From a virus: a stretch of 31,604 nt of DNA. The DNA lies in IMG/VR virus record IMGVR_UViG_3300031857_012369, positions 1-31,604 of that record; one strand, given 5' to 3'. Shown piece by piece: positions 9,859-31,063 of this stretch; the first letter of the stretch is position 1; every line of letters starts with the position of its first letter. A model generated the notes under the pieces. It worked only from the letters and a program-made list of their open reading frames with translations, did no database searches and was not told the origin of the DNA. The position numbers and the translations under genes are program-made.

Positions 9859-10584
9859 ATGGCATACTTAAATTCACCAATACCTGTAATAGATTGTTTT
9901 GTACGTGGTAACTTTTTAAGAGACCAAAAAGACCACTTTGATAAAAAATTTCCTTGTTTTATAATTGGAATATCGTCTATACCTGGTAAAACACCATTGT
10001 TTCACTTTGTTATGGAAGATGGCGGTGTGTGGTGGAGAATGCCTATACATGCCTTTTGTTGGAAAGAAGATGCTGAGCAACAGGAATTGGATGAATTGGT
10101 ATTATGGGATTCTTTCTCATACCATGTATCAGTCACACAATTTCCGTATTTTAAAGATAAGGCTGTTAAATTTATATCAAGGCGTAGGAATGAGTATAGA
10201 GGAAGATACTTATTCACAATAGATTGGGCTGCAAGTACTGATTCAGGGGACACGGATTATCTATTCTCAGAATATCCGTCACAACATAAATGCGGCCACG
10301 TGATAATGATGGACAACGGCAATTTTGCGATACAACCTAATAATCGTTTTAGGCTTCATGATCCAGCGTTCACTACAAAGGAGGAACTTGTTATCGAAAG
10401 AATGTATAACAATACTCTGTGGACTGCTGAACGGAATCACCGATGGGTTACACCCGATACAGATAATATGAATTACGATCATACTGATTTGGATGCTGGT
10501 GAATCTAATTTAGAAAGATCTAAATACTATAACGAGAGGTTAAATGAAAATACGAGTCAGTCATGTAAACGGAAAATACGATGA
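9859..10584 (+). CDS. Conserved phage protein, unknown function
   Basis: This 241-residue protein is rich in Trp, Phe, Tyr and Asp. Phrases such as GGVWWRMPIHAFCWKEDA, LWDSFSYHVSV, YLFTIDWA, KCGHVIMMDNGNFAIQPNNR recall an uncharacterised family seen in marine and Vibrio phages (memory only). No catalytic triad, signal or membrane segment is evident. It follows the helicase after 20 bases. Its last 41 bases overlap the next gene, a long overlap, so the two are probably translated together. The tail in the overlap is basic (CKRKIR). Confidence 0.65.
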   Translation: MAYLNSPIPVIDCFVRGNFLRDQKDHFDKKFPCFIIGISSIPGKTPLFHFVMEDGGVWWRMPIHAFCWKEDAEQQELDELVLWDSFSYHVSVTQFPYFKDKAVKFISRRRNEYRGRYLFTIDWAASTDSGDTDYLFSEYPSQHKCGHVIMMDNGNFAIQPNNRFRLHDPAFTTKEELVIERMYNNTLWTAERNHRWVTPDTDNMNYDHTDLDAGESNLERSKYYNERLNENTSQSCKRKIR

Positions 10585-19492: not shown

Positions 19493-20122
19493 ATGAAACT
19501 AAAAGATATTTTAACTGAAAATTCTTCATACAATCTAATAAATGAAGCGGGATTGTCAAGATTATTTGCTGGAATAAAACATGGTGAAAAGAAAAGAGAC
19601 TTCTGTGTTATGTCAGCATTCAGAAAGAACCTAACGTTACAACAAAATCGTTCAAGAAATAAAGAAGTGTATGCTACGTTATCAAATTATAAGATGGGTG
19701 GTTATCCATTAATTGGGCATTGGAAAGAAGCACCCGAAGGTGCGGATTGGCAAACAACACCCGAAGAAGATAAAACACTTGTCCAAGAAGAATCAATATG
19801 GTTTTACAAACCTGATAGTATGGAATTAAATCAGTTTACAGATATATGTGTTTCATTATGCAGAAAATTTAATCAGGATAGTGTTATAATTGGTATAGCA
19901 TCCGATGAAGAAGATACAGGTATTTATTTTTATAGTAAGGACGGTTCAAGGCAAAAGTTTGCTTCATCTGTAACAATAAGACCTGAAAAGTTAGGTGATG
20001 CATACAGTATAATGCGTGGTAATCCGTCTAACCCATTTGTGTTTGAAGGAACAGCACAACCTGTAAATATTATAGGCAATATGATGTTTAAACATCAAAA
20101 TATGCTTTGGTTTTCAAAATAA
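19493..20122 (+). CDS. Phage protein with capsid-targeting-like N-terminus (possible DUF3293)
   Basis: The 209-residue protein begins MKLKDILTEN, nearly the same start as the HNH protein at 13392. It looks like a T4-style targeting peptide of about 10 residues ending in (L/I)xE; a second possible site (INE) lies at residues 16-18. After this comes a domain with conserved features: FCVMSAFRKN, RSRNKEVYATL, GGYPLIGHW, EESIWFYKPD, FNQDSVIIGI. The order 'N..R...L...L...Y...G.W...E.S......QdsV' recalls DUF3293-type proteins (memory, uncertain). AGAGGAA precedes the ATG. If the peptide is real, the protein would enter the head and be injected. Confidence 0.6.
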   Translation: MKLKDILTENSSYNLINEAGLSRLFAGIKHGEKKRDFCVMSAFRKNLTLQQNRSRNKEVYATLSNYKMGGYPLIGHWKEAPEGADWQTTPEEDKTLVQEESIWFYKPDSMELNQFTDICVSLCRKFNQDSVIIGIASDEEDTGIYFYSKDGSRQKFASSVTIRPEKLGDAYSIMRGNPSNPFVFEGTAQPVNIIGNMMFKHQNMLWFSK

Positions 20123-20455: not shown

Positions 20456-22972
20456 ATGTATCAAAATATATTTGTAAAAATAAATACAAATGAAGCTTGG
20501 ATTTGGGATGATGAAAAGGGATTACTGCATTTTAATTACACACCGTATGCTTACAAAAAGGATCCTAATGGAAGTTATCGTTCATTGTATGGAGAATCGT
20601 TAACACGTGTAACTAATTTCGTAAAGAACGATCCAAATATGTTTGAGTCAGATGTACCCGAAACCACTCGTATATTAGTAGACGCATACTACAAATCAGA
20701 TATGCCATCAAAAGGAATAGTGGTTATGGCATTTGATATTGAGGTTGAAATGATTACAGGTCTACCTGATCCAACAACAGGTAATAATGAAATCACTTCT
20801 ATAGCATATCACGATTCGGCTACCAATCAATATACTATATTAGTTTTGGATAAAAAGAAAAAGTTAAAGTCCTCATCATCTGATAATAAAAATGTAGTGG
20901 TGTGTCACGATGAAAAAACTTTGTTATTAAAATTTTTGGATGCACTTCAAGAAATACAACCACATATTATGACGGGTTGGAATTGTGATGCTTTTGATAT
21001 TCCGTATCTTTATAATAGAATAAAAAGAGTTTTAGGAAAATCAAACGCTTATAGACTATCCCCAATTGGTGAAATGTTTTACTCACCGTATAGAAACCGC
21101 TATACTATTGCGGGTATTTCCGTACTTGATTATATGACAGTCTATAAAAAGTTTTCTTATAAAGAATTACCATCCTACGCACTTAACGCGGTATCTATGA
21201 CAGAATTAGGTCGTGGTAAGGTTGAATACGAAGGTAACTTGGATGACCTTATGGAAAACGATATTGAAACCTTCATACATTACAATATAACTGACGTTGA
21301 GTTGATATTGGAATTAGATAAAAAACTCCAATACATTGATTTAGTCAGAGGTATTGCTCATGTTGGCCATGTTCCATACGAAGACTTTGTGTATTCTTCA
21401 AAGTATTTGGAAGGAGCTCTACTAACTTATTTAAAAAATATCGGTGGTATTGTTGCACCAAATAAACCAGCAGATAGACGCGAGAAGATGGAACAATTAA
21501 AAGAGAGTGGTGAACAAGGATTCATCGGTGCATTTGTAAAGGATCCTGTACCAGGACGTTATGAGTGGATGTATGATTTGGATTTAACATCACTGTATCC
21601 GTCAATTATTATGACGTTGAACATTTCACCCGAAACTAAAATAGCTAAAATAGAAGATTGGAGCGCTGAATCATTTGTTCGTGGTACTAAAGAATCATAT
21701 ATTGTAGATGGCAAAATAGTTACTCACGAAAAATTAAAAGAATTTTTAGACAAATATAAGTACACTGTTGCTTCAAATGGTGTAATGTATAACTCCGAAT
21801 ATGTTGGACTTATACCAGCAATTCTTAATGATTGGTTTGATAAGCGGGTTGAATATAAAAATGAAATGAAACGATGGGGTAAAGATGGTAACGAAGAAAA
21901 GTATGAGTTTTATAAGAAAAGACAGTTGGTACAAAAGATTTTGCTTAACTCTTTGTATGGTGTATTAGGTCTACCCGCATTTAGATTTTATGATATTGAT
22001 AACGCTGAAGCGGTTACATTGACAGGACAGACTGTTATTAAGAAGACACAAGATGCTATAAACTCAAAATACAACAAAGAATTAAAAACAGATGCAATTG
22101 ATTATGTTCAATACGTTGATACTGATTCCGTGTTTGTTTCCTGTTTACCTCTGGTTAAAAATAGATTTCCAAACATAGATACGAATGATATTGAAATAAT
22201 GACACCAAAGATATACGAGATAGCAACAGAGGTTCAAGACTACGTTAATCAGTTTTACGATGTTATGTCAAAGAAACTATTTAACACGGAAAAGCATAGA
22301 TTAGAAATCAAACAGGAAATGATTGGTAGAACAGGTTTTTGGCAAAAGAAAAAACGTTACGCACTTTGGATTATATCAGACAATGGTGTTCCAATGGACA
22401 AACTTGAAGTTAAAGGATTGGATATTGTTCGTTCATCTTTCCCAAAATCCTTTCAGAAAATTATGAAAAGCGTATTGATTGATATTTTGAAAGGTAAAGA
22501 AAAGAATGAAATAGATGATTACATATTAAATTTCAAAAAGGAATTGGATAGTATTATCTACGCTGAAGTTGCGAAAAATTCTTCTATAAAAGAAATTAAG
22601 AAGTATGAAGATGTTGTCAAAGATGATGTGTTGGGTAAGTTTGCGAAAGGAACGCCGGCACATATTAAGGCCGCGATAAACTATAATAAGTTATTAAAGT
22701 TATTCAAGTGCCCACCAAAGTTTCCACCAATGAAAAATGGTGATAAGGTTAAGATTGTATACTTAAAAAATAATCAATATGGTTTGGAAGAATTAGCTTT
22801 CAGAGGTGATTCTGATCCAAAAGAAATTTTGGACTTTATCAAGGAACATATTGATGCGAATGAATTGTTTATGTCTGAATTAGACTCAAAATTAAAAAAC
22901 TTCTATGAAGCTATGAAATGGGATTTCCCATCAGAAAGTAAAAAAATAGCAAAAAAGTTTTTTTCTTTCTAA
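20456..22972 (+). CDS. 43: Family B DNA polymerase (gp43 type), main replicase
   Basis: The 838-residue enzyme has proofreading and polymerase domains in the standard order. Exo I: FDIEVE (D94, E96). Exo II: NCDAFD (176-181). Exo III: HYNITD (D280). Motif A: DLDLTSLYPS (374-383). Motif B: KILLNSLYG (494-502). Motif C: YVDTDS (D555, D557). A KxxKRYALW element follows. All catalytic acids are intact. It is a little shorter than T4 gp43 (898). AAGAGGA precedes the ATG. The clamp gene follows after about 50 bases, which carry a CGTATATT-like promoter core. A regA gene, which follows 43-62 in T4, is not seen. Confidence 0.93.
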   Translation: MYQNIFVKINTNEAWIWDDEKGLLHFNYTPYAYKKDPNGSYRSLYGESLTRVTNFVKNDPNMFESDVPETTRILVDAYYKSDMPSKGIVVMAFDIEVEMITGLPDPTTGNNEITSIAYHDSATNQYTILVLDKKKKLKSSSSDNKNVVVCHDEKTLLLKFLDALQEIQPHIMTGWNCDAFDIPYLYNRIKRVLGKSNAYRLSPIGEMFYSPYRNRYTIAGISVLDYMTVYKKFSYKELPSYALNAVSMTELGRGKVEYEGNLDDLMENDIETFIHYNITDVELILELDKKLQYIDLVRGIAHVGHVPYEDFVYSSKYLEGALLTYLKNIGGIVAPNKPADRREKMEQLKESGEQGFIGAFVKDPVPGRYEWMYDLDLTSLYPSIIMTLNISPETKIAKIEDWSAESFVRGTKESYIVDGKIVTHEKLKEFLDKYKYTVASNGVMYNSEYVGLIPAILNDWFDKRVEYKNEMKRWGKDGNEEKYEFYKKRQLVQKILLNSLYGVLGLPAFRFYDIDNAEAVTLTGQTVIKKTQDAINSKYNKELKTDAIDYVQYVDTDSVFVSCLPLVKNRFPNIDTNDIEIMTPKIYEIATEVQDYVNQFYDVMSKKLFNTEKHRLEIKQEMIGRTGFWQKKKRYALWIISDNGVPMDKLEVKGLDIVRSSFPKSFQKIMKSVLIDILKGKEKNEIDDYILNFKKELDSIIYAEVAKNSSIKEIKKYEDVVKDDVLGKFAKGTPAHIKAAINYNKLLKLFKCPPKFPPMKNGDKVKIVYLKNNQYGLEELAFRGDSDPKEILDFIKEHIDANELFMSELDSKLKNFYEAMKWDFPSESKKIAKKFFSF

Positions 22973-22980
22973 AAATTTAG

Positions 22981-22998
22981 TATATTGTACTATAAATA
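22981..22998 (+). promoter_or_regulatory. Clamp-gene promoter region: TATATT core plus TATAAATA
   Basis: TAGTATATT (TATATT at 22981-22986) resembles the other promoter cores in the window. Immediately downstream TATAAATA (22991-22998) is an exact match to the T4 late-promoter element. Both lie within 45 bases of the clamp ATG. Confidence 0.5.
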
Positions 22999-23023: not shown

Positions 23024-23743
23024 ATGGAAAAATCAAGATTGATTAACTTCATTGGTAAATACCATTTAGGCGGATTGGTTAATTCAGTTGCTTGGAATTC
23101 AAATGGCTCGTTGTACACAAAATTCATTTCCGATGATAAGTGTGTAGTTGGTGAAATTCGTTTAAATAATTTCAATTCAGAAAATGCTAAGTTTGGTGTA
23201 TATCAAACCGATCTTCTTATCAAACTATTGGGTGTATTAGGTAACAATGTAAACCTTAACATTAATGGTGCTGATGAAAAACCATTCTCACTTACTTTTG
23301 ATGATAAGTCAACTACTGTTAATTATATGTTGGCTGACTTGGCAGTTATTCCACCCGCACCTGATTTGAAGCAGTTACCAAACTTTGAACTAAAAATCCC
23401 AATCACTAAGGAATTTATTGATAAGTTCCTGAAGGCAAAGTCTGCATTGCCCGAAATTGAAAAGTTTACGGTATTGAAAAATAAAAAAGAAAAGAAATAT
23501 CAAATTGTAATTGGTTATGCGAATACCAATTCAAATAGAATTTCTATTGACGTTGACTGTGAATGTGATGACGATATTGAACCAATTAGTTTCTCTGCTA
23601 AATACTTCAGTGGCATCTTGGCTGCTAATAAAGATTTGAACGGTGGAACACTAAAAGTATCTTCAGAAGGTTTGGCGGTTGCTGATTTTGATATTGATGA
23701 CTTTGAAGCAACATATTACTTAGTAAAGTTGGAAGATAATTAA
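23024..23743 (+). CDS. 45: Sliding clamp (gp45 type)
   Basis: From the ATG at 23024 the protein has 239 residues; the upstream in-frame ATG at 22985 gives hydrophobic residues across the promoter region and is rejected. T4 gp45 has 228. Two-domain beta/alpha repeats with long strand pairs (YTKFISDDKCVVGEIRLN; TLKVSSEGLAVADFDIDDFEATYYLVKLEDN) fit a trimeric clamp with acidic tips. It holds the polymerase on DNA and in T4 also activates late transcription. Its stop overlaps the next start by one base (TAATG). Confidence 0.85.
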   Translation: MEKSRLINFIGKYHLGGLVNSVAWNSNGSLYTKFISDDKCVVGEIRLNNFNSENAKFGVYQTDLLIKLLGVLGNNVNLNINGADEKPFSLTFDDKSTTVNYMLADLAVIPPAPDLKQLPNFELKIPITKEFIDKFLKAKSALPEIEKFTVLKNKKEKKYQIVIGYANTNSNRISIDVDCECDDDIEPISFSAKYFSGILAANKDLNGGTLKVSSEGLAVADFDIDDFEATYYLVKLEDN

Positions 23744-25365
23744 TGGAAAAGTATTTCTACGAAAAGAGTGGAATAGAATCTTGGCCAACAAATATTACTT
23801 ATGGTGAATTGGTATCATATAATAAACAAAAATTATATGATTGGTTGGAAGATTTGAGACTACGTGTGTTAAAGAGTTGGGATGAACAAGGTGTTCCGCC
23901 AATTGTTGGTAAGAACGAAAATGAAATTAAAAGTTCATTCTCAAAACTTAGACAATACGATTGTTCCAAATTTTATTATGATGTTGAAAATGGCAATGAT
24001 CCTGATGTTATCGGGGTTATTGCCAATTTTTCAAAGTCAGGTTCAGCCGCAAATCAGTTCTTTCCAACTATGCTTAAAACAAAAATAGCATCAAGTGGTA
24101 GTCCTGACAGTGCAAGATCTATCTATGATTATTTCACGGATGTTTGGAAAGATTCGTTTCATCATATATTGAGACGTGTTATATTTAATGACTCCATGTA
24201 TCTTTATAGTAAATCAATTTCAACACTTGTAGAAAAGAATCCATACTTTAAGTCGGGTGAGACATTAAGAGATATGTTCCAATCCTACAAAAATGGTGAT
24301 GGTAGATTTGATAATAAAGGTTTACGTGTATCTAAAATATCATGCTCAACCGATGAACACAACAGGCTATATAAAAATTGTTTAACTATTAAAGCAAATG
24401 AAATACGTGAATTTTATTCGGAAGGATTGATTGATGATACAATGCTTTCATACTTGGATGATATTGAATCATTAACCGATACATTTTATGTAAAGAACGA
24501 TAGTGATGAACCAAGATTAAATGTTTTTATGATTAGAGTGTATGAGAAAAATATGAGAGTTTTTCCAGCAGCTCTACAGGCATTTAGAATATCATTCTCT
24601 CAGCCAGCAGTTAACTTTCCACCATTAACTGCAAAATTCTTATATGAACATTTTACTAAACATATTCCAGCATCAAGAACCGTAACGGTGTATGATCCAA
24701 GTTCGGGTTGGGGTGGAAGGATTTTGGGTGCAATGTCTGTTATTAGACCGATACATTATGTCGGAACAGATCCAAACACGGATAATATGATCGATGAATT
24801 GGGTATTTCTCGTTATGAATATTTGGCTGACTTTTATCTACGTTCAATAGGTGAACGTGCAAGTATAGCATCAAAGTTTTTCGATACCAAAGAAACACAC
24901 ACATACGAAATGTTTCAGGATGGTTCAGAAACAATACAGTTTAACGAAAGATTTAAGAAGTACAAAGGTGAATTAGATTTTGTTTTCACATCACCCCCAT
25001 ACTTTAATCGTGAAATGTATTCCGATGATGCAACTCAATCATACAAGGCACACTCACAGTACAGTGATTGGAGAGATAATTTTCTCAAACCAACATTGGA
25101 AACCGCTGTTTCCTTTTTGAAACCCGATAGATATTTGTGTTGGAATATTGCTAATATAAAAGTATCAGACAATAAAACAATACACTTGGAAGAAGACTCT
25201 ATTGACATCCTAAAATCATTGGGGATGGAGTATCATGGTAAGATATGTATGCTTATGACTAAAATGATAGGAAATACCGATCCAAAAAGACTTACTAACA
25301 AAGTTTATCATAAGGGTGAATGGTGGAAGATGGAACCCATTTTTGTATTTTATAAACCAAGTTGA
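23743..25365 (+). CDS. SPPY-type DNA methyltransferase with long N-terminal region
   Basis: The 540-residue protein has a class I SAM-methyltransferase core in its C-terminal half: motif I DPSSGWGGR (318-326), GTDPN (341-345), and catalytic motif IV TSPPYF (416-421), as in amino-methyltransferases of N4-cytosine and N6-adenine type. The N-terminal 300 residues have no recognised domain; NFPPLTAKFLYEHF (about 291-304) is shared in pattern with the paralogue downstream. There is no separate target-recognition domain beyond the N-terminus. It starts in the clamp stop codon (TAATG) and is followed after 4 bases by a second, related methyltransferase. The target base is not readable. Confidence 0.78.
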   Translation: MEKYFYEKSGIESWPTNITYGELVSYNKQKLYDWLEDLRLRVLKSWDEQGVPPIVGKNENEIKSSFSKLRQYDCSKFYYDVENGNDPDVIGVIANFSKSGSAANQFFPTMLKTKIASSGSPDSARSIYDYFTDVWKDSFHHILRRVIFNDSMYLYSKSISTLVEKNPYFKSGETLRDMFQSYKNGDGRFDNKGLRVSKISCSTDEHNRLYKNCLTIKANEIREFYSEGLIDDTMLSYLDDIESLTDTFYVKNDSDEPRLNVFMIRVYEKNMRVFPAALQAFRISFSQPAVNFPPLTAKFLYEHFTKHIPASRTVTVYDPSSGWGGRILGAMSVIRPIHYVGTDPNTDNMIDELGISRYEYLADFYLRSIGERASIASKFFDTKETHTYEMFQDGSETIQFNERFKKYKGELDFVFTSPPYFNREMYSDDATQSYKAHSQYSDWRDNFLKPTLETAVSFLKPDRYLCWNIANIKVSDNKTIHLEEDSIDILKSLGMEYHGKICMLMTKMIGNTDPKRLTNKVYHKGEWWKMEPIFVFYKPS

Positions 25366-25369
25366 TTAT

Positions 25370-26428
25370 ATGAATGTAAACTCAGGTAAATTTTTTAACA
25401 TAGATCCTTTAGAAGTTCGTCTTTGGAAAGAAACGGATGAATTTTTAAATGACAAAAGGGAATTAGATGACACAATAGATTGTGTTTTTCAATATTACCG
25501 TAAACACGGTTATCCATATATGAAGATAACCGATGAAGAAAAGCATGATCATATGAAAAAACTTCAGAGTTTTGATTATGAATCTATTTTTATCGGTAAC
25601 GATTTGAAACAAACTATGAATGGACTTAGATTAGCTTGGTCTTATTTTCCACATGCAATGGAAGTTAAATGTGGCAATTCAAAAATGTCTCCAATGGATA
25701 ACTATTTGAATGACCATACTTTCAAGATGACTATAAAAAAATGTTTAACATGGCTTAAAAAACATTGGCACGGTAGATGGCAAGAAAATAGATTGCGTCA
25801 AGCACTGAAAATTTATTCAGGTGTTCAAGCTGTGTCAAACTTTAGACCAACAGCTGCGGGTGCTATCTATAAAAGATATGGTGGTGACGGTGTAATGTGG
25901 GATATGTCTTGTGGTTGGGGTGGAAGATTGGTAGCTGCATTGGCTTCACCATATATTAAAACCTACATCGGAACAGATCCCTCTACGAAAACATTTGAAG
26001 GTTTATGTCAACTACGTGATGATTTTACATATTTAAATAAAAATATTCATTTGCATTGCATGGGTTCTGAAGATTTATTACCCGATAAGGATTCATTAGA
26101 TTTATGCTTCACATCCCCACCATATTTTGATACTGAGAAATATGCGGATGAAGAAACTCAATCATATAATAAGTTTCCAAACAAGGATAGTTGGGGTTCG
26201 GGATTCCTAAGAACAACATTTAACAATTGTTATCATGGATTAAAACAAGATAGATTTATGTTAATAAACATAGCCAATACACCGAAACATAAAGACTTGG
26301 AAGAAATGACAATACATTATGCTGAAGACGTTGGATTCAAACACGTTGACACCTTACAGTTAATTCTTTCATCAGTAATGGGTGCGGGTTATAAGAGAGA
26401 ACCTATTTTTGTTTTCAAAAAGTATTAG
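25370..26428 (+). CDS. SPPY-type DNA methyltransferase, paralogue of its neighbour
   Basis: From the ATG at 25370 the protein has 352 residues; an earlier in-frame ATG lies inside the previous gene and is rejected. Motif I is WDMSCGWGGR (177-186), then GTDPST (201-206), then TSPPYFDTEKY (248-258). The post-IV block (YADEETQSY) matches the neighbour (YSDDATQSY), and both end in (R/M)EPIFVF. They therefore come from one ancestor. This copy lacks most of the neighbour's long N-terminus. Both cores look intact, so a heterodimer, or two enzymes of different specificity, is possible. A CGTATATT-like core follows before the clamp-loader gene. Confidence 0.78.
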   Translation: MNVNSGKFFNIDPLEVRLWKETDEFLNDKRELDDTIDCVFQYYRKHGYPYMKITDEEKHDHMKKLQSFDYESIFIGNDLKQTMNGLRLAWSYFPHAMEVKCGNSKMSPMDNYLNDHTFKMTIKKCLTWLKKHWHGRWQENRLRQALKIYSGVQAVSNFRPTAAGAIYKRYGGDGVMWDMSCGWGGRLVAALASPYIKTYIGTDPSTKTFEGLCQLRDDFTYLNKNIHLHCMGSEDLLPDKDSLDLCFTSPPYFDTEKYADEETQSYNKFPNKDSWGSGFLRTTFNNCYHGLKQDRFMLINIANTPKHKDLEEMTIHYAEDVGFKHVDTLQLILSSVMGAGYKREPIFVFKKY

Positions 26429-26448
26429 GATTTTATCTGAAAATTTTG

Positions 26449-26454
26449 TATATT
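26449..26454 (+). promoter_or_regulatory. Promoter -10 (TATATT) for the clamp-loader unit
   Basis: TTTTGTATATTGATA lies 28 bases before the gp44 ATG, and shares AAAATTTnGTATATTG with the clamp promoter. A -35 is not clear (TTAGGA at an 18-base spacing is weak). Confidence 0.45.
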
Positions 26455-26482
26455 GATAGAGTAAAAATTTACAAGGAATATT

Positions 26483-27421
26483 ATGAATATTAAATCACAC
26501 ACAATTTGGAATGAAAAGTACAGACCACAGACGTTAGAAACGTATATCGGTAATGATACTATTCGGGAAACATTCGCTCAATATATTTCGAGTAATGATA
26601 TTCCCCATCTTTTACTACACGGTGATGCGGGTATAGGTAAAACTACTATTGCAAAGATTCTTGCAAATTCGATTGCAAACAATAACTACATCTATATCAA
26701 TGCATCAGATGAAAACTCAGTTGATATTGTCAGAGACAAAATTAAACAGTTTGCTTCATCAGTTGGTTTTGGTGGAATAAAAATAATCATATTAGATGAA
26801 TGTGATTACATGACACCAAATGCACAAGCTGCTTTGAGAAATATAATGGAAACATTCAGCAAGACAACAAGATTCATTTTGACTTGCAACTATGTTGACA
26901 GGATTATAGATCCAATACAGTCACGTTGTCAAATATTTAATTTGGTAGCACCATCCAAAAAAGAAGTTGCACAACACTTGGTTTCTATATTGGATAAAGA
27001 AAGTGTAAAATATTCTAAAGAAGATTTGGTAGCACTATTGAATGTTACATACCCTGATATTCGCAGAACAATAAACACATCACAACGCAGTGTAATAAAC
27101 GGTGAATTGCGTTTGGATAAATCAACAGTTGTTGGTTATGACTACATGGTAAAGATAGTTGAAGTTTTGAAATCAGATAAAAACAAGAAAGAAAAATTTG
27201 ATTCCATAAGACAAATTATTGCTGACAACTATGTTAAAGACTTTAATTTACTTATGAGATATTTATATGAAAATGTGGAAACCTATGCTAATGGTTTTGT
27301 ATCATCAATAATATTGATACTTGCAGAAGCACAGTATAAGGATTCACTTGTAGTAGACCATGAAATAAATGCCATGGCAATGTTTATTCAAATTATTATG
27401 GAAATCGATCAAAGGAGGTAA
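26483..27421 (+). CDS. 44: Clamp loader large subunit (gp44 type)
   Basis: This 312-residue AAA+ ATPase loads the clamp. Walker A is GDAGIGKTT (47-55), Walker B IIILDECD (101-108, DEC box), sensor 1 ILTCNY (132-137), and the SRC arginine finger (147-149). The N-terminus WNEKYRPQTLETYIG is typical. T4 gp44 has 319 residues. ACAAGGA precedes the ATG. The small subunit is probably two genes on. Confidence 0.93.
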   Translation: MNIKSHTIWNEKYRPQTLETYIGNDTIRETFAQYISSNDIPHLLLHGDAGIGKTTIAKILANSIANNNYIYINASDENSVDIVRDKIKQFASSVGFGGIKIIILDECDYMTPNAQAALRNIMETFSKTTRFILTCNYVDRIIDPIQSRCQIFNLVAPSKKEVAQHLVSILDKESVKYSKEDLVALLNVTYPDIRRTINTSQRSVINGELRLDKSTVVGYDYMVKIVEVLKSDKNKKEKFDSIRQIIADNYVKDFNLLMRYLYENVETYANGFVSSIILILAEAQYKDSLVVDHEINAMAMFIQIIMEIDQRR

Positions 27422-27695: not shown

Positions 27696-28148
27696 ATGTC
27701 TAAAAGTATTTTTGACCATATTAAAGGTGTTACTATACGTAAAACCAAATGGGAAAACTTGTCGGATGATGAGAAAAAAAGTTGGAGTAATTACATGATA
27801 ACTAAATTTTTTTCTATGGAAATGGAATTGGTTGAGTTAATGAACGATGTGCAAAAATACACCAACGGAATATTGTCACCGAAAGACTATTATAACTTTT
27901 TATACGATACATTGCCTAAACACTCATTCTTTCTTAAATATGTGAAGGCTAAAGATAAGTTGGATATAGATTCTGAACTATCAAAAATATTTTGCAATCA
28001 CTTTCAATTAGGAAGGAATGAGGTTTATGCTTATGTAAAATATCTTAAACGAAATAATGAAGATGAATTAAATTCGATATTAAAAATGTATGGTGTCAAA
28101 GACACCGATATAGAGAACTTTCATAAAAAGCTAAAGAATATAAAGTGA
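27696..28148 (+). CDS. 62: Probable clamp loader small subunit (gp62 type)
   Basis: The 150-residue, mostly helical protein starts at an ATG after AAAGGTG. It has the look of divergent gp62 in marine T4-like phages: NYMITKFFSMEMELVELMND, KDYYNFLYDTLPKHSFFLKYVK, then a helical C-terminus (SILKMYGVKDTDIENFHKKL). Similarity is of pattern and context (near gp44), not a confirmed match; T4 gp62 is 187 residues. It would complete the 4:1 loader. The next gene's GTG frame overlaps its stop, but that gene's likely start follows it. Confidence 0.6.
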   Translation: MSKSIFDHIKGVTIRKTKWENLSDDEKKSWSNYMITKFFSMEMELVELMNDVQKYTNGILSPKDYYNFLYDTLPKHSFFLKYVKAKDKLDIDSELSKIFCNHFQLGRNEVYAYVKYLKRNNEDELNSILKMYGVKDTDIENFHKKLKNIK

Positions 28149-29439: not shown

Positions 29440-29448
29440 GGATAAGTG

Positions 29449-30177
29449 ATGAAAGTAGCTTTAGTTTGTATTGCTAAAAATGAAGATAATTACATAAAAG
29501 AGTGGGTTGACTATCATACTAAATTGGGATTTGATCAAATATGTATTTATCAAAATGATTGGCGATGTAGTGTTCAATTGGACAACACAACAATTATGGA
29601 CTTTGATGGACCAAATAGACAAACTGAAGCGTATAATAATTTTTTAAGGTATTGGCACAATGATTATGATTGGGTTGCCTTCTTGGATGTTGATGAATTC
29701 TTAGTATTAAAAAAACACAGTAATGTTAAGGACTTTATACAAGATTACCAACAACATGATGTAATAGGAATAAATTGGGTTTTATTTGGAGATAACGGCT
29801 TAACATTTGATGGCAATTATAATGTATTAAGTAGATTTACAAAAAGACAGATAGGTGTGGTGCCATTAGTAAAATGTATATCAAGAGTTAAACCAAATAT
29901 ATCATGGGCTTTACATAATGCTGTTAATGTAAATGCTATTGATACTAATTATAAAATATTTGCAGGGTGTAGTAACGAAAACGGTGATGATAGTATAGCT
30001 CAAATAAATCATTATTTTTGTAAAACTTGGGACGAGTGGTCTGCAAAAAAGAATCGAGGCAGGGCTGATTTGTCACCAAACAGTCTTGGTTACATAAGGT
30101 GTGATTCTGATTTTGAAGCACACAATGCTAATGAAATAGAAGACACTTTCGCTTTAGACTTTTTTAACTCACATTAG
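29449..30177 (+). CDS. Glycosyltransferase, family 92/family 2-like (copy 1)
   Basis: A 242-residue GT-A enzyme from the ATG at 29449 (GAGGATAA upstream). The N-terminus VALVCIAKNEDNYIKEWVDYH is the start of GT92 and related bacterial family-2 proteins, and WVAFLDVDEFLVLKK (DVDEF, 80-84) is the metal-binding DxD-type motif. The C-terminal half is Asn-rich and contains HNAVNV and INHYFCKTWDEWSAK. A second, 3'-cut copy lies at 31069, very similar over the first 90 residues. Target (base, glycan or host surface) is unknown. Confidence 0.8.
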   Translation: MKVALVCIAKNEDNYIKEWVDYHTKLGFDQICIYQNDWRCSVQLDNTTIMDFDGPNRQTEAYNNFLRYWHNDYDWVAFLDVDEFLVLKKHSNVKDFIQDYQQHDVIGINWVLFGDNGLTFDGNYNVLSRFTKRQIGVVPLVKCISRVKPNISWALHNAVNVNAIDTNYKIFAGCSNENGDDSIAQINHYFCKTWDEWSAKKNRGRADLSPNSLGYIRCDSDFEAHNANEIEDTFALDFFNSH

Positions 30178-30187
30178 TTGACAAAAT

Positions 30188-31063
30188 ATGAAAAAACCAC
30201 TACTACATAATGAAAGATATTCTCAAATTAAACAAAAGCGTAAAAAAGAGTTCATTCCAAATTTACCAAATACAAACAAATTAAATGATGGTGTTGTTAG
30301 TGAATTGGGTAAAGTGGAAGACTTTTCATTATTCACTGATAATCAGGTTTTATTAAGATTCCCACACTTAATAAACAGACCTTGGATAAGACATGATACC
30401 ACCAAGAAGTTAAGTGTAATAGTGCCTTACCGTGATAGAGAGAATCATTTAAATATATTTATAAATGAATTTCCACAATACTTGGAAAGACAGGGTATAG
30501 ACTATCATATAACAGTAGTTGAACAGGCAAATAATGAAAGCCCTTTTAATAAGGGCATGCTTTTTAATGCTGGTTTTAAAGAAACAAAGAACTATGATTA
30601 CTTTTGTCTTCACGATGTTGACATGATACCACTGTATTCCGATTATGGCTATGACATTAATACACCAAAAGGAAACGGGTTTTTTATACACCCAGCTCGT
30701 TATATTGAAAAATGGGATTACATCGAATTACCTGGATGTTGTGGTGGTGTTGTTTTAGTAGATAGACAAACATATTTAGATGTTAATGGGTATAGTATAA
30801 GTTATTGGGGTTGGGGTGTTGAGGATGACGACTTTAAACGTAGATGTCAACAAAATAAAACAACTCGCATAATAAACACAGAGGGCATATACAGAACACT
30901 ATACCATTTACATAATTACAATCCAAATTGTTATGTAAAAAATAAAAAAGTATTTGATTCAAATATACCAAAAGAACAAGATGGTTTAAATCACACTATG
31001 TATAAAGTTGTTTCACGTAAAAAACTTACGGATAGAATATCATTTCTAAGTATTATGTTCTAA
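30188..31063 (+). CDS. Beta-1,4-galactosyltransferase-like (GT7) protein
   Basis: The 291-residue protein carries the GT7 signature blocks of animal beta-4-GalT: VIVPYRDRENHL (77-88), FNKGMLFNAGF (120-130), HDVDMIP (142-148, metal), GCCGGV (183-188), and YWGWGVEDDDFKRR (206-219). Order and spacing match the family. There is no signal peptide or membrane anchor, so it acts in the cytoplasm. N-terminal 60 residues are a basic, unmatched lead. It sits between two GT92-like copies in what looks like a glycosylation cassette. Donor and acceptor are not readable. The start has no clear Shine-Dalgarno. Confidence 0.85.
   Translation: MKKPLLHNERYSQIKQKRKKEFIPNLPNTNKLNDGVVSELGKVEDFSLFTDNQVLLRFPHLINRPWIRHDTTKKLSVIVPYRDRENHLNIFINEFPQYLERQGIDYHITVVEQANNESPFNKGMLFNAGFKETKNYDYFCLHDVDMIPLYSDYGYDINTPKGNGFFIHPARYIEKWDYIELPGCCGGVVLVDRQTYLDVNGYSISYWGWGVEDDDFKRRCQQNKTTRIINTEGIYRTLYHLHNYNPNCYVKNKKVFDSNIPKEQDGLNHTMYKVVSRKKLTDRISFLSIMF

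Follow-up and report, generated by a model that had tools for sequence, protein, structure and literature searches.

The replisome block of a T4-like phage, represented by a 31.6-kb contig of a virus record (called the window at its full length), carries two related methyltransferase genes, MT1 and MT2, between the genes for the sliding clamp and the clamp loader. The reading that we favor, with reasonable though not strong confidence, is that the two products are independent amino-methyltransferases, probably acting on cytosine N4 of DNA, that would be made together with the replisome and serve in anti-restriction. The sequences themselves show that both genes belong to this family, keep their motifs intact, stand in this gene order, are under purifying selection, and have separate ancestries, and they also show a promoter-like pattern; target and purpose are put forward below as the most plausible interpretation.

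The block is ordered polymerase, clamp, MT1, MT2, gp44-like loader, small gene, and gp62-like loader, and the polymerase, clamp, methyltransferase, and two loader genes lie on the + strand. The family B DNA polymerase (gp43-like, 20456..22972) was identified by a match to phrog_262 (E 1.7e-190) and is 63% identical to the polymerase of Microcystis phage Mel-JY01. The sliding clamp (gp45-like, 23024..23743) matched phrog_223, DNA polymerase processivity factor (E 1.3e-7); its likely start is the ATG at 23024, and the listed ORF begins with a TTG at 22985. MT1 (23743..25365, 540 aa) was recognized as an SPPY-type amino-methyltransferase by its motifs, by Pfam and PHROGs matches, and by BLASTP to MT2, and MT2 (25370..26428, 352 aa) was placed in the same type by motifs, profile matches, and a structure model. 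They are followed by the large subunit (gp44-like AAA+ ATPase, 26483..27421; phrog_168, E 1.4e-83) and the small subunit (gp62-like, 27696..28148; phrog_225, E 6e-9) of the clamp loader. The clamp stop codon TAA (23741-23743) shares a base with the ATG of MT1 (23743) in the junction TAATG, and a 4-base gap separates the MT1 stop at 25365 from the MT2 ATG at 25370. The first-pass annotation had described two tightly coupled, related SPPY methyltransferases at this place; their coordinates were confirmed by sequence, translations, and BLASTP, and the coupling by the sequence at both junctions. No restriction endonuclease gene was found beside MT1 and MT2 with Pfam and PHROGs, the flanks being replisome genes. 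Just past the replisome block, GT92-like and galactosyltransferase-like glycosyltransferase genes were observed (29446-31063). The phrog label of bilin reductase for 9859-10584 was dropped after Pfam gave no match there, and no host was inferred.

MT1 residues 279-538 and MT2 residues 144-351 were aligned by BLASTP at 30% identity with E 4e-24, and at this value the likeness is not due to chance. Motif I is DPSSGWGGR in MT1 (residues 318-326) and DMSCGWGGR in MT2 (residues 178-186), and motif IV is TSPPYF in both (residues 416-421 and 248-253, respectively). All of the sequence blocks that had been listed previously (GWGGR, GTDP, TSPPYF, DxxTQSY or ExxTQSY, and EPIFVF) were recovered in both proteins, and little or no variation is seen in them across 31 distinct MT1 and 36 distinct MT2 sequences. 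Neither family varies in motif I or motif IV, and FTSPPYF occurs in every MT1 and MT2 row of the alignment and also in the rows of a third family member, MT3. The 300-residue N-terminus ascribed to MT1 alone needs correction, as MT2 also has such a region; about 276 residues precede the catalytic core in MT1 and about 136 in MT2, so the net extra length is about 140 residues. The dN/dS ratios (about 0.04-0.09 for MT1 and about 0.04-0.14 for MT2) indicate purifying selection.

By motif IV, both proteins belong to the (S/D/N)PPY amino-methyltransferase superfamily. The sole clear lead in Pfam was N6_N4_Mtase (PF01555), with E 8e-6 and 4.5e-5 for the two proteins, and the scores of 26.4 and 24.0 bits do not reach the cut-off of 26.7 bits, so that they are related to this family but not filed as members. 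PHROGs gave phrog_12517 (unknown function) and phrog_498 (DNA methyltransferase, 4.9e-11), and PADLOC gave type II MTase matches (8e-10 and 9e-9). The TSPPY motif suggests DNA cytosine-N4 methylation (m4C). TSPPY m4C enzymes of the PF01555 or REBASE type are similar to MT1 and MT2 in motif I (DxxxGxGG), motif IV (TSPPY), and the class I fold, with a weak profile match over motif IV, whereas MT1 and MT2 have motif I before motif IV, an N-terminal region, nothing past motif VIII, and no restriction partner. Among annotated phage proteins, MT2 has its closest homologue in the N-4 cytosine-specific DNA methylase of Vibrio phage 2.058.O (AUS02009.1; 39% identity over 91% of the length). The gene for this methylase is present in a single copy and is located not in a clamp operon but among nucleotide-metabolism genes, next to those for thioredoxin and dCMP deaminase.

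The structure model of MT2 (pLDDT 75, pTM 0.75) shows a class I fold in which the N-terminal region is followed by motif I and then by motif IV, and the EPIFVF end is the final beta strand of this fold (strand 342-351 of the model) and not a separate tail. The model matched class I methyltransferases in the PDB with Z 13-16; a PDB search by sequence found no relative of MT1 and only four chance-level matches for MT2. The MT1 model was poor (pLDDT 53, from 10 rows), and the fold class of MT1 is taken from its core alignment to MT2. On the basis of the model and this alignment, both proteins are class I SAM-dependent methyltransferases with a GxGG motif I after beta strand 1. In the viral structure library, the MT2 model gave full-length TM scores of 0.59-0.64 to pithovirus-like (giant-virus) proteins annotated as cytosine-N4 DNA methyltransferases; this, together with the PF01555 score just under the cut-off, bears out the previous assignment as SPPY-type methyltransferases.

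The nearest solved folds to the MT2 model are those of Trm11, TrmN, and Trm14 (Z ~16, rmsd ~3 Å, ~180 residues), which have a PPY-type motif and the motif order in common with MT2; the likeness in fold is confined to the catalytic domain. Because these are tRNA m2G methyltransferases, they count, as does the Pfam score below the curated cut-off, against the favored reading, and MT1 and MT2 might instead be RNA methyltransferases, for example for tRNA m2G, that modify the tRNA of host or phage in the course of infection. We regard this as unlikely. Trm11, TrmN, and Trm14 carry a THUMP RNA-binding domain, whereas no THUMP-type sequence match was obtained for MT1 or MT2; the UPF0020 (THUMP-family) profile was absent for both at Pfam E values up to 1, where a DNA methylase profile was found, and the gene context of the replisome and the full-length viral matches to annotated DNA N4-cytosine enzymes likewise argue for DNA. 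The fold alone does not choose between DNA and RNA; the substrate is probably DNA, and the product is probably cytosine methylated at N4.

To place the two genes among relatives, IMG/VR was scanned with profiles, which gave 357 MT1-bearing and 332 MT2-bearing candidate stretches, 80 of each being examined; relatives were divided into close (at least 69% identity) and distant (~46%) groups, and the counts refer to distinct genes with enough flanking sequence. In all 41 close and in 18 of 20 distant relatives, 59 of 61 distinct ones altogether, the clamp gene is directly upstream of MT1, and the junction is exactly TAATG in 30 of 58 distinct cases. MT2 adjoins MT1 in 35 of 41 close relatives and is missing from that position in the other six (L084, L086, L088, L091, L095, and L096). 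Nearly all distant relatives are without MT2 beside MT1, and two distant rows in which MT2 appeared to come next look like L053 and L134, members of the close group whose MT1 frames are broken. MT2 was not found anywhere in the 177-kb contig of L092, which has MT1 and MT3, nor anywhere in a 169-kb contig with MT1 and two MT3 genes, and in another marine clade MT2 lies directly behind gp62. Many relatives have MT3 ahead of the polymerase gene (for example at L016 2-1075 and at L116 2258-4692, where it is doubled), and MT3 was not found in the 31.6-kb window. Predicted DNA methyltransferase genes directly behind the clamp are a feature of a widespread and mostly uncultured group of T4-like phages. 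No paper describing the clamp-methyltransferase arrangement was found in the literature covered, which leaves out most subscription journals; a general remark has been made that a phage may have several DNA methylases, perhaps to beat more than one restriction system (PMC7824862).

Several further features of the relatives were observed. Two very distant methyltransferase-like genes stand in tandem in L241 (858-1766 and 2390-3343), a 123-kb contig that also has MT1, MT2, and MT3. An insert of approximately 0.7-1.2 kb, possibly an intein, an intron, or a homing endonuclease, splits the polymerase gene in L028, L037, L039, L087, and L094. In L119 and L121, MT1 relatives are without a recognizable clamp upstream, and PhoH-like and nucleosidase-like genes, named from translations only, are found there.

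The phylogenetic tree placed MT2 with proteins of Pelagibacter, Thioglobus, Bacteroidales, Acidobacterium, and a Vibrio phage, and MT1 with those of Devosia and a Flavobacteriales bin; long branches on some rows make the deeper placements uncertain. Forcing phage MT1 and MT2 into one clade was rejected by the AU test (p-AU 2.7e-5). Tree and test together rule out local tandem duplication of one gene, and by these analyses MT1 and MT2 are old, separate lineages. Identity to the window is 92% for MT1 and 70% for MT2 in L006, and 73% and 82%, respectively, in L013, opposite patterns of the kind that separate exchange of the two genes would produce. Full-length homologues with the same motifs, MT1-like (35-40% identity) or MT2-like, are present in Devosia (L248), Flavobacteriales (L246), Pelagibacter (L251), and Thioglobus (L253); these are not beside a clamp gene, and some are in integrase- or recombinase-bearing regions. 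The Devosia homologue of MT1 is right behind a DUF3102 gene and near an N6-methylase-like protein in an integrase-flanked region (L248 5616-13207). Genes for an aspartyl/asparaginyl hydroxylase-like, an unassigned, and a PAPS-reductase-family protein precede the MT1 homologue of L246 (1790-4396), which may be part of a base-modification cluster.

These results bear on the proposal of the first-pass annotation that MT1 and MT2 may be the two subunits of one enzyme with divided roles; METTL3-METTL14 would be a comparable heteromer. The 4-base gap and the adjacency in most close relatives speak for it, and this adjacency could reflect some cooperation between the two. Partners of such an enzyme would be always encoded together, but several contigs, including those of 169 and 177 kb, carry MT1 without MT2, and in the marine clade MT2 is away from MT1, behind gp62. 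One partner with degraded catalytic motifs would also be expected, but both motif sets are complete and invariant. Given in addition the independent divergence and the separate relatives outside these phages, a two-subunit enzyme appears very improbable. The survey of how often the pair occurs together, which had been suggested as a check, gave in large part the outcome, frequent single-copy genomes, that had been named as speaking against the proposal.

Promoter-like motifs were compared between the window and the relatives. The motif TTTnGTATATTG has exactly three occurrences in the window (5402, 22976, and 26444), before gp32, the clamp, and gp44. The copy before the clamp, TTTAGTATATTG (22976..22987, +), is an exact match and one of these three, and TTTTGTATATTG (26444..26455, +), also an exact match, stands before gp44, between this gene and the clamp-MT1-MT2 unit. 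Among distinct genes of the relatives, the core motif is ahead of 40 of 56 clamp and 28 of 64 gp44 genes (background, 1.7% of random windows), and ahead of none of 66 MT1 and none of 59 MT2 genes. Since the motif precedes the clamp and gp44 and never MT1 or MT2, the methyltransferase genes appear to be read with the clamp, and a promoter at the clamp probably drives clamp-MT1-MT2. Late-promoter-like sites TATAAATA are present before the clamp, but their frequency in the window is not above chance. Of the replication-coupled, two-subunit modification enzyme that had been suggested, the coupling is thus retained as apparent co-expression with the clamp, whereas the two-subunit form is not.

The modification might time or mark replication (strand discrimination, origin control, or packaging), with MT1 riding on the clamp, rather than counter restriction, and the position of MT1 almost always right behind the clamp, even at ~46% protein identity, would fit such a role. 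However, no clamp-binding peptide was seen, the conserved C-terminal EPIFVF being a core beta strand in the MT2 model; in two distinct sequences with MT1, no recognizable clamp precedes it; and full-length MT1 relatives are found in non-replisome settings such as the integrase-flanked region of Devosia. Microcystis phage Mel-JY01, which has the closest polymerase in the phage collection and by polymerase is the closest cultured relative, has the same replisome order and gave no match to MT1 or MT2 in its genome, so that the replisome does not need these two genes; its 26-kb replisome region gave no match to MT3 either. We consider marking of replication to be quite unlikely, and it is a similarly long shot that MT1, made with the clamp, acts at the fork and marks each new strand while MT2 and MT3 add further marks, as a modification program built by the replisome in this uncultured group. 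A SAM synthase gene was observed behind gp62 in the replisome block of Mel-JY01 (L060 17590-18792).

Under the favored reading of independent DNA methyltransferases, the clamp message would also be translated into MT1 and MT2, and the enzymes would be made while the phage genome is copied. Each would use SAM to methylate an exocyclic amine in new phage DNA, probably N4 of cytosine and probably at its own set of target sites, and the methylated progeny DNA would probably be shielded from host restriction. Between two and four related enzymes would be present per phage: MT1 following the clamp, MT2 following either MT1 or gp62, and MT3 ahead of the polymerase. The window also has a probable S-adenosylmethionine lyase gene at 19493-20122 (PF23780, 38.8 bits versus a cut-off of 28), with weak homologues close to the dUTPase gene of the relatives L242 and L245; such a lyase is odd beside SAM-dependent enzymes in the same phage and weighs against this reading.

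DNA methyltransferases are commonly encoded by phages, and phage methyltransferases as such are already known; here they are fixed in the clamp operon and occur as a variable set. That a methyltransferase is fixed behind the clamp throughout a broad group of phages suggests a coupling between replication and the expression of the modification enzyme. Should the DNA turn out to be modified, these phages would serve as a natural experiment on how one genome layers and exchanges several modification enzymes, and on why a close relative manages without methyltransferases.
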